Positions 9,351 through 61,828 of a stretch of 64,000 nt of DNA are shown one piece after another. Both the position numbers and the translations under genes were made by a program. The notes beneath the pieces were generated by a model, which saw only the letters and a list, made by a program, of their open reading frames with translations, was not told the origin of the DNA and searched no databases. Position 1 is the first letter of the stretch. The number at the start of each line of letters is the position of its first letter. Origin of the DNA: a virus; IMG/VR virus record IMGVR_UViG_3300006076_000002, positions 28,859 to 92,858 of that record; one strand, written 5' to 3'.

Positions 9351-9424
9351 GTACCATTAAGCTCAAAGGTAGAGCTCATTTCCTTTTAAGATTTGGGTTA
9401 CTGGTTCGACTCCAGTATGGTACT
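9351..9424 (+). tRNA. tRNA-Lys(UUU)-like gene, anticodon stem imperfect
   Basis: Acceptor stem GTACCAT/ATGGTAC pairs over 7 bp. D-arm AGCTC-AAAGGTA-GAGCT carries the GG pair. The anticodon loop is CTTTTAA (anticodon TTT, Lys). T-arm ACTGG-TTCGACT-CCAGT is perfect. Total length is 73 plus discriminator, with no encoded CCA. The weak point is the anticodon stem ATTTC/GATTT with two T-T mismatches, so it may be a decayed tRNA or one tolerant of U-U pairs. It lies in the long non-coding gap after the exonuclease remnant. Confidence 0.6.
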
Positions 9425-39623: not shown

Positions 39624-40628
39624 CTAACTTGCATATCTGATGTAGTATCCAGCAGTTCTATACTTGGCAAAACCTAGCTTCTCGTTATCTCTAGCAGCTC
39701 TAGTTACTTTAGATCTATTAGCTCCTATAGCCTCTGCAGCTTTCTTACCACTATCATACCTATCCCAACTCTCTTTATCTTTAGACACTTCAACTGGACG
39801 TTCTAGCCCTTCTGAGTACAGTGTGTTATCTATTGTCATAGCTATGTTTTTAAACTTCTCAGGTAACTCTTCACCTATAGTATTGAGTACTATATACCCT
39901 CTGTATCTATATGGATTAATTGTAACGTCGTAGCCTTTATTCTTATCTAATGTGTCATTTTGTTTAGCAGCTTTGCCTAGCTTACTTGCATTAGCCATAG
40001 TGATACTTAGTTCTTTCTCTATTAGCTCTTTAGCATCTATTAAACGTGGAAAGAACTTCCACTCTTTACCATCTTTAGATACTGCACAGCCCTTATTTCT
40101 ACTATCTTGTAATCCAGTTTCCCATGCGTGTTTTAGATTATCTTCATTACTAATCCACTCTAAGTTTGTATAATGATTATTTAGTTTGTCACCGTCTTTA
40201 TGATTTACTGTAAGTGTTTGATCACCTTCTACAAATGCTCGTGCAACTAGTCTGTGTATATACTCTAATACTTTGTTTCCATCTATACTAGTAATATTTA
40301 CTACTTTGTACCCATTTTTACCAATAATAGGATTTAAGTACTTTAATGTTTTTAACGAGTATACTTCACCATTCTTAGTTATTGTATGGTTAGGGTACCC
40401 TTCAATTGGTTTACCTGGTACAGTCTCAGGAAAGGTTATTTTTATAAGGTATTCTATAGCTCTTCGTACTGAAGTACCATCGATTAGTTTTACATTAGTA
40501 GCTTCTGGACTATTTTTATACTTTACGGTTGAATATTTAGTACCATCATCACGCAGTAAAACGTATGAATTATTTAGTTTTTGGATTTTTAGGTTTTGAT
40601 AACCTGGGGTTTGTCGTGTGTTATTCAC
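39624..40628 (-). CDS. NUMOD4-HNH homing endonuclease, 334 aa
   Basis: GTG start at 40628 after AAGGAG. The NUMOD4-like part (GYPNHTITKNGEVYSLKTLK, near residues 79-98) leads to the HNH core YIHRLVARAFVEG...LTVNHKDGDKLNNHYTNLEW (near 122-161). It ends with helix-turn-helix DNA-binding repeats (DSGKKAAEAIGANRSKVTRA). The extra N-terminal 75 residues are not family-typical. It is inserted directly downstream of the major capsid gene. An RBS-proximal hairpin probably limits its translation. Confidence 0.85.
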   Translation of the reverse strand: MNNTRQTPGYQNLKIQKLNNSYVLLRDDGTKYSTVKYKNSPEATNVKLIDGTSVRRAIEYLIKITFPETVPGKPIEGYPNHTITKNGEVYSLKTLKYLNPIIGKNGYKVVNITSIDGNKVLEYIHRLVARAFVEGDQTLTVNHKDGDKLNNHYTNLEWISNEDNLKHAWETGLQDSRNKGCAVSKDGKEWKFFPRLIDAKELIEKELSITMANASKLGKAAKQNDTLDKNKGYDVTINPYRYRGYIVLNTIGEELPEKFKNIAMTIDNTLYSEGLERPVEVSKDKESWDRYDSGKKAAEAIGANRSKVTRAARDNEKLGFAKYRTAGYYIRYAS

Positions 40629-41908: not shown

Positions 41909-42466
41909 TTAGTCCCCTCTTTGTGGGCTCTTAATTTTTTTCCAGGTGTACCCTTTATGAACTGGTCCACGTTTACCAGAGATAGCTCTAGTTACACCAG
42001 ATAGTACAAATCCTGCATTCTCTAAATTCTTTTTACCGACTAAAGTGATTTCTTCACCAGTTTTAATATTTGTACCTATGTAGGTAGTCATACCTTTACC
42101 GACCATCATTTCCTTAGTTGATAACCCTGTTAACCAAGCATGATCTATATTTTGTTGTCGATCACACCATTCTAGATTCGATGCACAATTATTATGCTTA
42201 TCGCCATCTATATGATTAACCTCTTTTAACCCTAATGGGTTAGGAAGAAACGCCTCCGCTACTAGTCTATGTACGTATTTACTTTCTACAGGGTCATTCC
42301 ATTTTTTTCTTCTTAATGAAACTCTAAGATAGCCTTTATTGTTTGTAGCAGCTAACTCTTTTGTTGGAGTTTTACTGATACCTTCATTTCTGACTATCAT
42401 ACTGTATACTTTTCCGTTTTCACTTACAGTGTATCTACCATTGAATCCATTGACTTCTTTTAACAT
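41909..42466 (-). CDS. NUMOD4-HNH homing endonuclease, 185 aa
   Basis: Starts at ATG 42466 (MLKEVNGFNGRYTVS), since AAAGGAT lies six bases upstream; an in-frame ATG at 42481 would place that RBS inside the gene. NUMOD4 (YTVSENGKVYSMI) is followed by HNH (YVHRLVAEAFLPNPLGLKEV, then NHIDGDKHNNCASNLEW) and a C-terminal DNA-binding part (LENAGFVLSGVTRAISGK). Inserted between scaffold and capsid genes, leaving the capsid RBS intact 17 bases beyond its stop. Confidence 0.85.
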   Translation of the reverse strand: MLKEVNGFNGRYTVSENGKVYSMIVRNEGISKTPTKELAATNNKGYLRVSLRRKKWNDPVESKYVHRLVAEAFLPNPLGLKEVNHIDGDKHNNCASNLEWCDRQQNIDHAWLTGLSTKEMMVGKGMTTYIGTNIKTGEEITLVGKKNLENAGFVLSGVTRAISGKRGPVHKGYTWKKIKSPQRGD

Positions 42467-42525
42467 AGTATATCCTTTCATGAATATATTATACCCTTAG
42501 TTGCCTTATGGAAACCTTTTTCTCT

Positions 42526-58921: not shown

Positions 58922-61828
58922 CTAAAATATTAAACTACTATTGTAATCCTCATCATCGTCATCCTCACTAAAATCTTCACCCCATACACCGGACACTTTT
59001 GGTAGTGCATCAACATTAGGTGCACTATTGGAAGGGTTTATGTAATCTATCAAAGCTAGCTGTGACATACAATCTAAGAAGTCATCATGAAGAGAATTAT
59101 GAATAACTACCCCATTTTCTACAGTAAAATTATTAGCCTTATCTACAGATAAATCATATACTAACTCTCTCTTTCTCTTCACTATTTTTACGATCGAAAC
59201 GCTTACGACACCTAGTTCCGCAGAATCTTGATTCAACATCAACTTTTGTATAATAGGTTCCTCCACATTCTTCACATCTATGTTCATATTTCTGTTTACT
59301 TCTATTTGTTTTTGCACATTCTTCACTGCAGAACTTTCGTTTACTGTTTTTGAAGATTTCATAGCCTGTTCCACACTCCAAACACTTTCGTATTTCCAAT
59401 TTTGACCTACTTCGTTGGTACTCATGCTGTTTGTAGCACTCTGTTGAACAAGTCTTTTGATTTGGTGCCTTTTGCTTGAATTCATTACTACATATAATAC
59501 AAGTTTCCACACCCAAAGGTTTATAGTCTGGATTAACTCTTTTATTTCTATCACGCTCTCTGCACTGTGATGAGCAGAATTTTGTACCATCTTTGTCTGT
59601 GTCTTTGAGTGTAAACTCTTTTTCACACCAAACACAAACCCTCTTCTTATTTCCTTTAAGTCTTGTACGACGTTTCCTAATACCTTCATACTCCCCAGCT
59701 TTAGCTTGTTTAGCCAATTTACATAGCTTTTCTTGTTCTTCTGGAGTTCTGTTGTAGTAGTGCCTGTCTTCATCGTTTGCGTGATGCTCTTGGTGAGCAG
59801 AGCGTGATAATAATTCAAGATTATTTGGGCTGTTATCTTCCTTGTTATGGTTCTTGTGGTGAACATCCATACCTTTAGGTATATCCCCTTTAGTTTGTTT
59901 ATAGACGTATCTGTGTAACCAATCCCTACTCGCTCCAATCTTGGTTGTAGATTGATAATACCCTGACTTTTTTCTTGTCCATTTGTATCCACCGTATTCA
60001 ATTTGTTCCATGTTATATCTCCAGTTACTAATTTATCTGATACACCTAAATCACACACCTTCTTATACCCTGTTGTAGTAAGCACTTTGTGTTCTGCTGT
60101 TAAGTGCATTACACCAGTTTCAGTGTATATACTATACGTATCTTTTATACCTGTAAGTATAACATCAGTAACCTTAAAGTTTGCTACGTATCCTTGGTAT
60201 TGGGACACTACATTATCACCTATCCTTACATCTCTAATACTGATAAGTCCTTTATCTGTGAACACTTTAGTATCTGCTGATACACATCCCACTCCGGACC
60301 TACTCGTCTTTCTTATCTCCTCTAACGCTTCTTTCATAGCAGGACTATCTTCTAACTCTTTAGGGAATTTTATCTTATTTAGTTCGAAGTCAGGAAGCAC
60401 TCCTCTTAACCTCTCCATTTTATTCCCTTGACCCTTACTACGTATACCCACTTGGTTAGGGGATTTACCCTTCTGTCTTGCATACCTAAACCATATGTTC
60501 TTCTCAATCATCATAGCATCTAATCTGTTTATGTTTAACTGCTGTTGTCCATCTATTTCTATTCCTACCTCTAAGCTAGCTCCTTTACTACCCCATCGAC
60601 TAACTAGTTTAAACAGTGCTTCATACTGCTCCTGAATTGTACATTGTTCTAGAAACAAATCTATCAGGTATTTATCATCATTAGCGTTTATCGCCCATAC
60701 CGCTATACCACTATAGTCACCCTTCTTAGTGTTACCCGCTGTAAAGTCGGTAGTGATAACTATGGAGAAGTTCTGTATGTTCTTAACTATTAAGCTACGA
60801 GTATCATACCAACTGAGCATATATTCAGGTATTAATCTCTCAGCCTCTGAACTAATTTGTAACATTCGCTCTTGCTGAAAACTTTGTAATTCACCACTTT
60901 GTACTGCAGACTGGTATTGCTTAAGTATAGATTCAGGAGTATGCATAGCAGGCCACATGCTTTTTATGTCTTTTACTTTAGTGTCTTTATCTATATGTTC
61001 ACATATTGGAAATAACATAGGAGTATATACTCCACCAACCAACATAGACCATACTATATCACTTTCTGTAAAAGGTGTAGCTACTGATATTACATAGTTA
61101 TCTGTACCTGCTTCTAAAGCATTTAAGATATCACTGTATACTATAGTTTTTAATTGGTCCATTATAGTCTCTGAGTAAGCAGCTGCACTTGATGGGATTA
61201 TGTCATCTAGCAAGAATGCAGAAGGTCTTCTACCGTAACTGTCTCGAATACCACGGATACCACCAGACCATCCGACGTTACGCATTAGAAATGTCCTATC
61301 CGCTTTGGATCCTGGACCTTTACGTACTAATTCTATTTCCGTTTCAGTTGTTCTAATCTCTTCAAAGTAATTCTGACAAAATATGCTTTCATTGACCATG
61401 GAACCTAAAGTTTTACTTATAACCCTTGCTCCCCCTTGAGCCGAAGCACTGACAGAAGTTATAAAAGGTATTTTCTTACCGTTAGGCATACCTCCTTTGA
61501 TAGCTAAGTACAAAGGAAGGAAAGCGGTAAGTAAAGTAGATTTTGCACCACCACGGGAAGCTACAACAGCTATTCTGTGAGGGTCTACATTAATAGTGCT
61601 CTGCACTTCTTTAGAGTACGGGAACTGCTCTGCTTTAACTTTACCAAATACTACATCAATAGCGAAGTAATGCCAAGTAGGGGTAGTTACTAGAAAATCC
61701 TGACCATATACAAGCCTCATTAAGTTAAAAAACTCTAGAGACTCTTCACTGGGGGTGTATCCTGGAAAATCATAGTTTATTGTTTTTAGTGCTTCATCAG
61801 CATTAAATTTTTCCTTTAAATTACCCAT
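58922..61828 (-). CDS. Terminase large subunit interrupted by an intein (968 aa; 571 after splicing)
   Basis: DNA-packaging motor. ATPase: SRGGAKST (Walker A, 91-98) and FLLDD (Walker B, Asp208-Asp209). Nuclease: VITTDFTAGN (Asp361) and, after the intein, HDDFLD. The intein covers residues 515-911, between GVG and SLHDDFLD, right before the last nuclease motif, a position that must be perfect for function and so guards the intein against loss. The mature protein would be 571 aa, normal for the family. Starts 2 bases after the small subunit stop. Confidence 0.92.
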   Translation of the reverse strand: MGNLKEKFNADEALKTINYDFPGYTPSEESLEFFNLMRLVYGQDFLVTTPTWHYFAIDVVFGKVKAEQFPYSKEVQSTINVDPHRIAVVASRGGAKSTLLTAFLPLYLAIKGGMPNGKKIPFITSVSASAQGGARVISKTLGSMVNESIFCQNYFEEIRTTETEIELVRKGPGSKADRTFLMRNVGWSGGIRGIRDSYGRRPSAFLLDDIIPSSAAAYSETIMDQLKTIVYSDILNALEAGTDNYVISVATPFTESDIVWSMLVGGVYTPMLFPICEHIDKDTKVKDIKSMWPAMHTPESILKQYQSAVQSGELQSFQQERMLQISSEAERLIPEYMLSWYDTRSLIVKNIQNFSIVITTDFTAGNTKKGDYSGIAVWAINANDDKYLIDLFLEQCTIQEQYEALFKLVSRWGSKGASLEVGIEIDGQQQLNINRLDAMMIEKNIWFRYARQKGKSPNQVGIRSKGQGNKMERLRGVLPDFELNKIKFPKELEDSPAMKEALEEIRKTSRSGVGCVSADTKVFTDKGLISIRDVRIGDNVVSQYQGYVANFKVTDVILTGIKDTYSIYTETGVMHLTAEHKVLTTTGYKKVCDLGVSDKLVTGDITWNKLNTVDTNGQEKSQGIINLQPRLERVGIGYTDTSINKLKGIYLKVWMFTTRTITRKITAQIILNYYHALLTKSITQTMKTGTTTTELQKNKKSYVNWLNKLKLGSMKVLGNVVQDLKEIRRGFVFGVKKSLHSKTQTKMVQNSAHHSAESVIEIKELIQTINLWVWKLVLYVVMNSSKRHQIKRLVQQSATNSMSTNEVGQNWKYESVWSVEQAMKSSKTVNESSAVKNVQKQIEVNRNMNIDVKNVEEPIIQKLMLNQDSAELGVVSVSIVKIVKRKRELVYDLSVDKANNFTVENGVVIHNSLHDDFLDCMSQLALIDYINPSNSAPNVDALPKVSGVWGEDFSEDDDDEDYNSSLIF
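59096..60286 (-). other. Intein in the large terminase (397 aa) with its frame overlapped by an HNH gene
   Basis: Block A CVSADTKVFTDKGLISIRD (Cys1), block B HLTAEHKVLTTTGY (TxxH), block F VYDLSVDKANNF, block G VVIHN followed by Ser+1: all residues for protein splicing are present. Only about 90 residues at the N-side and about 20 at the C-side lie outside the overlapping HNH gene. The 286 codons between are open in the intein frame but look unlike any endonuclease, being the alternative reading of the HNH gene. Confidence 0.88.
59154..60011 (-). CDS. HNH endonuclease nested out of frame inside the terminase intein
   Basis: 285 aa, same strand as the terminase but in another frame. Its own RBS CTGGAG lies 7 bases before ATG 60011. 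HNH core: DWLHRYVYKQTKGDIPKGMD, VHHKNHNKEDNSPNNLELLS (residues 30-69). Then four zinc-finger-like CxxC...C...C repeats: CVWC, CIIC, CLEC, CEEC, each with a later CSxxC or CGxxC pair. It is presumably the homing nuclease for the intein allele. In known inteins the nuclease is normally in frame with the splicing domains; here it is a separate gene sharing the same DNA. Confidence 0.85.
   Translation of the reverse strand: MEQIEYGGYKWTRKKSGYYQSTTKIGASRDWLHRYVYKQTKGDIPKGMDVHHKNHNKEDNSPNNLELLSRSAHQEHHANDEDRHYYNRTPEEQEKLCKLAKQAKAGEYEGIRKRRTRLKGNKKRVCVWCEKEFTLKDTDKDGTKFCSSQCRERDRNKRVNPDYKPLGVETCIICSNEFKQKAPNQKTCSTECYKQHEYQRSRSKLEIRKCLECGTGYEIFKNSKRKFCSEECAKTNRSKQKYEHRCEECGGTYYTKVDVESRFCGTRCRKRFDRKNSEEKERVSI

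Follow-up and report, generated by a model that had tools for sequence, protein, structure and literature searches.

A complete HNH endonuclease gene nested out of frame within an open terminase intein of a virus, and the spread of this layout among phages

Canonical inteins in the large terminases (TerL) of mycobacteriophages contain an in-frame endonuclease (PMC5050341). Fractured genes, in which a split intein goes together with a free-standing endonuclease, are reported to occur (Dassa et al., 2009, NAR 37:2560; cited in PMC10448857). The ShiLan domain is a hidden out-of-frame HNH inserted in a phage DNA methylase gene (PMC11855218). I-HmuI, an HNH homing endonuclease, is intron-encoded.

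The locus analyzed here shares with the mycobacteriophage inteins the TerL host, the splicing blocks, and an endonuclease at the usual site, but its endonuclease is a separate overlapping gene, outside the intein polypeptide. As in the fractured genes, an endonuclease gene lies between two intein halves in a phage gene, and 22 loci of this HNH family are built in that way; here, however, the gene is unbroken, a single ORF spans the two halves, with the HNH gene overlapping it in a different frame, and the family is HNH_3 with Cys4 repeats. As in ShiLan, the HNH is coded in a frame other than that of its host gene, which remains open; it also lies in the "third frame" relative to the host and shows a patchy, homing-like spread; ShiLan, however, has no detectable intein or intron and no ribosome-binding site (its start is GTG), whereas this locus has a complete intein splicing domain and a Shine–Dalgarno site. 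The absence of a splicing domain from the host frame, which characterizes the ShiLan type, is hence not seen, Intein_splicing being present. The HNH fold resembles that of I-HmuI-type homing endonucleases, although no group I intron is found. Inteins and HNH homing nucleases have been described before; what seems to be new, within the literature searched, is that they overlap, how widely they do so, and how this relates to fractured genes. No intein with a complete out-of-frame endonuclease was found in the literature searched; for overlapping frames, the ShiLan authors (PMC11855218) cite their own 2025 preprint on actinobacteriophage inteins with "non-canonical architecture" (bioRxiv 10.1101/2025.01.02.630785), and it is possible that part of the nested layout has been reported there.

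The window, i.e., the whole stretch of 64,000 nucleotides that was analyzed, is part of a 92,858-base virus record (features in Table 1). The TerL ORF matches phrog_38 (E 6e-47), and its top phage matches are Vibrio SBP1 and other N4-like phages (~34%). The intein is inserted in the TerL nuclease motif (G^C...HN^S-LHDD); its removal leaves a TerL of 571 aa, and intein-less relatives have 568–573 aa. The sequence criteria of a class-1 intein (Cys1, TxxH, block F, HN, Ser+1) are met, with TAEH as block B and VYDLSVDKANNF as block F; Pfam Intein_splicing gives 37–42 bits (cut-off 35.8), and TIGR01443 intein_Cterm (NCBIfam) is also above its cut-off. In the AlphaFold model of the TerL frame, intein residues 1–92 and 361–396 form a confident Hint domain (pLDDT 92–98), so that the fold criterion is met by a predicted model, while the ~265 residues between the halves have low pLDDT, mostly 40–60, with one helix at 75–85. 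In a structure search, the modeled splicing domain matches the DnaB, RecA, and gp41-1 mini-inteins. The TerL intein is thus likely to be a cis-splicing class-1 intein, splicing being inferred in the absence of splicing data.

Table 1. Features of the terminase locus (window coordinates).
Feature	Position	Strand	Description
Large terminase (TerL) ORF with intein	58922..61828	(-)	968 aa; N4-like, Schitoviridae-type
Intein	59096..60286	(-)	397 aa, TerL residues 515-911; class-1 residues Cys1 ... HN/Ser+1
IntN half of splicing domain	60011..60286	(-)	Intein residues 1-92; pLDDT 92-98
Shine–Dalgarno GGAG	60019..60022	(-)	7 bases before HNH ATG (60011)
HNH endonuclease gene (putative)	59154..60011	(-)	285 aa, -1 frame; HNH_3 domain and four Cys4 treble-clef-like repeats
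Intein residues 93-376, TerL frame	59157..60010	(-)	Loop as by-product of the HNH gene, mostly low confidence; IntC strand begins in the final ~16 residues
HNH stop TGA	59154..59156	(-)	Inside intein codons TAT GAT (Y-D, block F)
IntC half	59096..59205	(-)	Block F VYDLSVDKANNF, block G VVIHN; pLDDT 95-97; 5' part coded twice, with HNH tail

The HNH gene sits entirely within the intein, and the layout is seen directly: the third base of each TerL codon is the first base of an HNH codon (-1 frame, offset 2 mod 3). The gene starts 1817 bases into TerL, directly after block B, at the place where in-frame endonucleases occupy a conserved insertion site in inteins (PMC6801210), and ends within block F, its final ~16 codons overlapping the first IntC strand (361–381 in the model). 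The original prediction of a 968-codon open TerL ORF with all splicing blocks held (motifs, Pfam, TIGR01443), as did that of a complete 285-codon HNH gene with its own ribosome-binding site and ATG in another frame of the same strand (GGAG 7 bases before the ATG), and that of 15–20 C-terminal HNH codons overlapping beta-strands of the splicing domain.

The nested ORF matches HNH_3 (E 4e-15), and its model (AlphaFold, pLDDT 91) has I-HmuI (1u3e) as top PDB match (E 0.0077, probability 1.00). Ten residues are invariant in 43 sequences, i.e., H33, H51, H52, N60, N64, H73, and four Cys of one Cys4 set; the structure and conservation profiles draw on the window and IMG/VR loci only. The criteria of an HNH homing endonuclease in motif, catalytic residues, and fold are met, the conservation of catalytic and zinc residues being observed and the fold predicted. 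The HNH protein is likely the homing nuclease that spreads the intein; only the patchy distribution is shown, and cutting and homing are inferred. An intein with an in-frame endonuclease is ruled out for the window by the offset of 2 mod 3, and a group I intron with an HNH gene is ruled out by an Rfam scan of the window, which gave no group I intron and, as its single match, a tRNA-Lys (ttt) at 9351–9424 (+). Elsewhere in the window, two more HNH_3 ORFs, at 41909–42481 (-) and 39624–40628 (-) with 190 and 334 aa, flank a 424-aa ORF resembling a major capsid protein; they may be further mobile nucleases.

In many loci the HNH stop is formed, in the -1 frame, by conserved splicing codons, namely TAT GAT (Y-D), TAT AAY (Y-N), or GTT GAG (V-E). 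In the clade that uses the other frame, block F is VYCLNV or VYCLVV and the stop comes from CTA AAT or TTA GTT. Since block F supplies the stop, it may explain the frame preference, although this is an inference. Upstream of its ATG, the HNH frame is open for only 21 bases in the window (median across loci, 78). A Shine–Dalgarno site is found upstream of 41% of nested loci vs. 14.5% of control out-of-frame ATGs; a match of at least 4 bases is seen in only 22 of 54 nested loci with ATG. The short upstream frame and the Shine–Dalgarno enrichment favor internal initiation over frameshifting. Hence, HNH translation probably starts independently at its own GGAG/ATG, with expression inferred and no expression data available; the prediction that the nuclease is expressed independently of the host gene fits these data and likewise remains inferred.

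The openness of the intein frame was assessed by holding the HNH protein constant and redrawing synonymous codons according to the codon usage of the window (5000 draws). Across the HNH gene, 10.6 ± 2.0 intein-frame stops are expected (minimum 3 over 5000 draws), so that the "dozen or more" of the original prediction was about right, and none is observed; permuting the HNH gene's own codons gives an expectation of 5.7. The third frame has 44 stops across the gene; in Vibrio phage 1.238, which is the nearest of the broken homologues, the same frame contains 14. GTA, the commonest Val codon of the window (509 uses), is not used in the HNH gene. The HNH proteins are poor in Leu, Ile, Val, and Met, hence the intein frame makes fewer stops than a naive count suggests; amino-acid make-up alone, considered as the cause of openness, explains part of the effect but not the zero stops of the resampling. 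The high-GC phage TJE1, taken alone, is a weak test, with 1.1–3.2 stops expected.

Across loci, with identical copies removed, the host frame has no stops in nested -1 loci (101–214 expected) and none in nested loci of the other frame (67–95 expected), vs. 193 in fractured loci (170–187 expected) and 194 in intein-less HNH homologues (167–183 expected). The nested class is in part defined by its open frame, and zero stops there are partly circular; therefore, the weight rests on the resampling and on the contrast with fractured and free homologues. The avoidance of stops is thus shown, and both lines of evidence support the original claim that the intein frame is selected to stay open across the HNH gene, which we consider likely, although inferred from sequence alone.

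The HNH frame is more conserved than the host-frame linker, with identities of 91 vs. 67% (loci L034/L049), 60 vs. 31% (L029/L030), and 49.5 vs. 31.6% (the window and contig L014). In the last pair the intein halves are 53% and the linker 29% identical, and the host-frame linker similarity, 0.316, is slightly higher than the 0.268 ± 0.020 predicted from HNH alone; shared ancestry possibly accounts for the excess. Selection on the linker's own sequence has little support, its identity being near the level forced by HNH. The window has one near relative (L014, 49% HNH identity), hence no within-clade rate test is available for it. With a conserved HNH frame and a variable, low-confidence linker, the host frame appears to be under pressure mainly to stay open.

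Searches with the HNH protein matched 32 phage records. A single HNH query gave no match among viral contigs, where a profile of five proteins was needed; the latter found 80 viral and 26 genomic loci. Together with the first ones these make 111 loci, classified by profile HMMs of the two intein halves. The HNH gene is nested out of frame in an open intein in 58 of 111, 49 in the frame of the window and nine, forming one clade, in the other; 22 are fractured, with HNH between intein halves on separate ORFs, and in 31 no intein is seen. In-frame HNH was sought and found in none of the 80 intein-associated HNH loci (0/111 overall). The carriers include phage and prophage sequences. The terL genes of Tetrasphaera phage TJE1, of a human-gut phage scaffold, and of Acinetobacter phage Highwayman share the arrangement; for TJE1 and Highwayman, the annotation of the nested locus consists of only a single CDS, terL. 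Intein_splicing matches 48 of 49 nested host ORFs, most of which are TerL, while two match portal proteins. The continuous ORF of the window does not meet the criterion of a fractured gene, which is met by Vibrio phages 1.238/1.245 and other relatives. Of 40 TerL relatives, the window not counted, 38 have no intein at the insertion site.

Both scenarios named in advance as refuting the layout failed: a frameshift error merging HNH in frame with the intein, as the independent contig L014 (identical with contig L150) agrees with the window in site, intein, and frame, and relatives with in-frame HNH, given their absence among intein-associated loci. The original remark that no well-described case of the layout was known needs correction, since 58 of the loci show it, including the cultured TJE1 and Highwayman, and since an out-of-frame HNH has been published, ShiLan, though without an intein (PMC11855218).

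Several relatives show further peculiarities. The TerL of L004 (L004:519-2599) is interrupted, two residues inside the following motif (HDDF^C), by a mini-intein without HNH; an apparent frameshift splits the N-terminal part of this TerL into ORFs of 331 and 371 aa. Further upstream, the TerL of L014 (L014:1470-5090) has another intein-like insertion, unlike the first (CHVVGTT...SKNC before IIFDD); two inteins may thus be present. In Vibrio phages 1.238/1.245 (L006:741-3617, L010), TerL holds, in addition to the fractured intein, another close to the Walker A motif (...VTHN/TT). A 439-aa ORF of a probable mobile nuclease (L003:2677-3996) lies immediately upstream of an intein-less terL. HNH relatives directly after terL (L158–L162) are found in Lactobacillus CL2, Pseudomonas PAE1/FBPa53, Sphaerotilus SN1, and Exiguobacterium EauM-23; in Lactobacillus CL2, intein halves are present, unannotated.

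Overall, the locus is best read as a selfish intein that overlaps the gene of its own homing nuclease, the latter being initiated independently, and that is related through HNH to the split-intein "fractured genes"; this is likely, with expression, splicing, and cutting inferred and without expression, splicing, or cleavage data. In this reading, the homing endonuclease would be a complete HNH gene in the -1 frame at the usual endonuclease insertion point, and not an in-frame domain. It would be translated from its own GGAG/ATG on the terL transcript, and the block F codons (TAT GAT) of the intein would supply its stop. The TerL frame would be stop-free across the HNH gene because a stop would truncate the terminase, and the protein encoded there would amount to no more than a loose loop that is excised along with the intein. 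The HNH protein would cut intein-less terL, and the intein and HNH would be copied in together. A stop gained in the TerL frame might be rescued by split-intein halves on separate ORFs, yielding the fractured relatives. The direction from nested to fractured is an inference, made because a stop in the host frame would interrupt the gene and yet leave the intein halves able, in principle, to trans-splice. In the HNH tree, the window clusters with L014 and the fractured Vibrio phages (support 96), all loci of the other frame fall into one clade (99), and at least seven changes between nested and fractured states are required; the tree, built by a quick method and with many open forks, gives no direction.

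A programmed -1 frameshift from TerL-IntN, producing a fusion with HNH that is then processed, would agree with the -1 frame of HNH at 49 loci, but it is very unlikely, given that the HNH frame opens so shortly before the ATG (21 bases in the window, median 78 across loci), that Shine–Dalgarno sites are enriched, and that the other frame is used by a single clade. The HNH protein might instead be a packaging cofactor kept beside the terminase and no homing enzyme. In favor of this view, HNH proteins linked to terminases are established components of packaging (Kala et al., 2014, cited in PMC10448857 and PMC12613952), and in those annotated phage records that were examined the gene is situated within terL or adjacent to it. 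The cofactor view is equally hard to sustain, however, as the HNH lies at the endonuclease site of an intein, its presence is patchy (no intein occupies the site in 38 of 40 TerL relatives), two host ORFs match portal proteins, and the nearest structure is I-HmuI.

The absence of activity data would allow the HNH or the intein to be a dead relic, its frame open by inertia; against this, the catalytic and zinc residues are invariant, HNH is 49% conserved with L014, all splicing residues are present, and there are no stops, making a relic very improbable. Finally, an intein frame open by chance or by sequencing error could appeal to the low Leu, Ile, Val, and Met content of HNH proteins, with few stops arising in the intein frame, but is contradicted by the resampling, the 58 nested loci, and L014, and is all but excluded.

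A bolder reading of the preferred, overlapping-gene interpretation, for and against which the case is evenly balanced, is that out-of-frame nesting constitutes a major, largely unrecognized intein class ("overprinted" inteins) in phage terminase genes, forming the evolutionary link between mini-inteins, homing endonucleases, and natural split inteins, the nuclease stop being built into block F; such inteins would be hidden from annotation because the host ORF is open. The nested layout would uncouple nuclease expression from the host protein, one DNA stretch being read for both; therefore, live nuclease genes may be concealed in inteins that have long shapeless loops and seem to lack an endonuclease. 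The many overlapping-gene pairs, with one frame constrained in sequence and the other mainly kept open, make a good study system for overprinting. The window and Vibrio phage 1.238 carry related HNH genes in an open and a broken terminase, respectively, and the nested layout offers a specific candidate for the state from which split inteins, tools in wide use but of unclear origin, arose.
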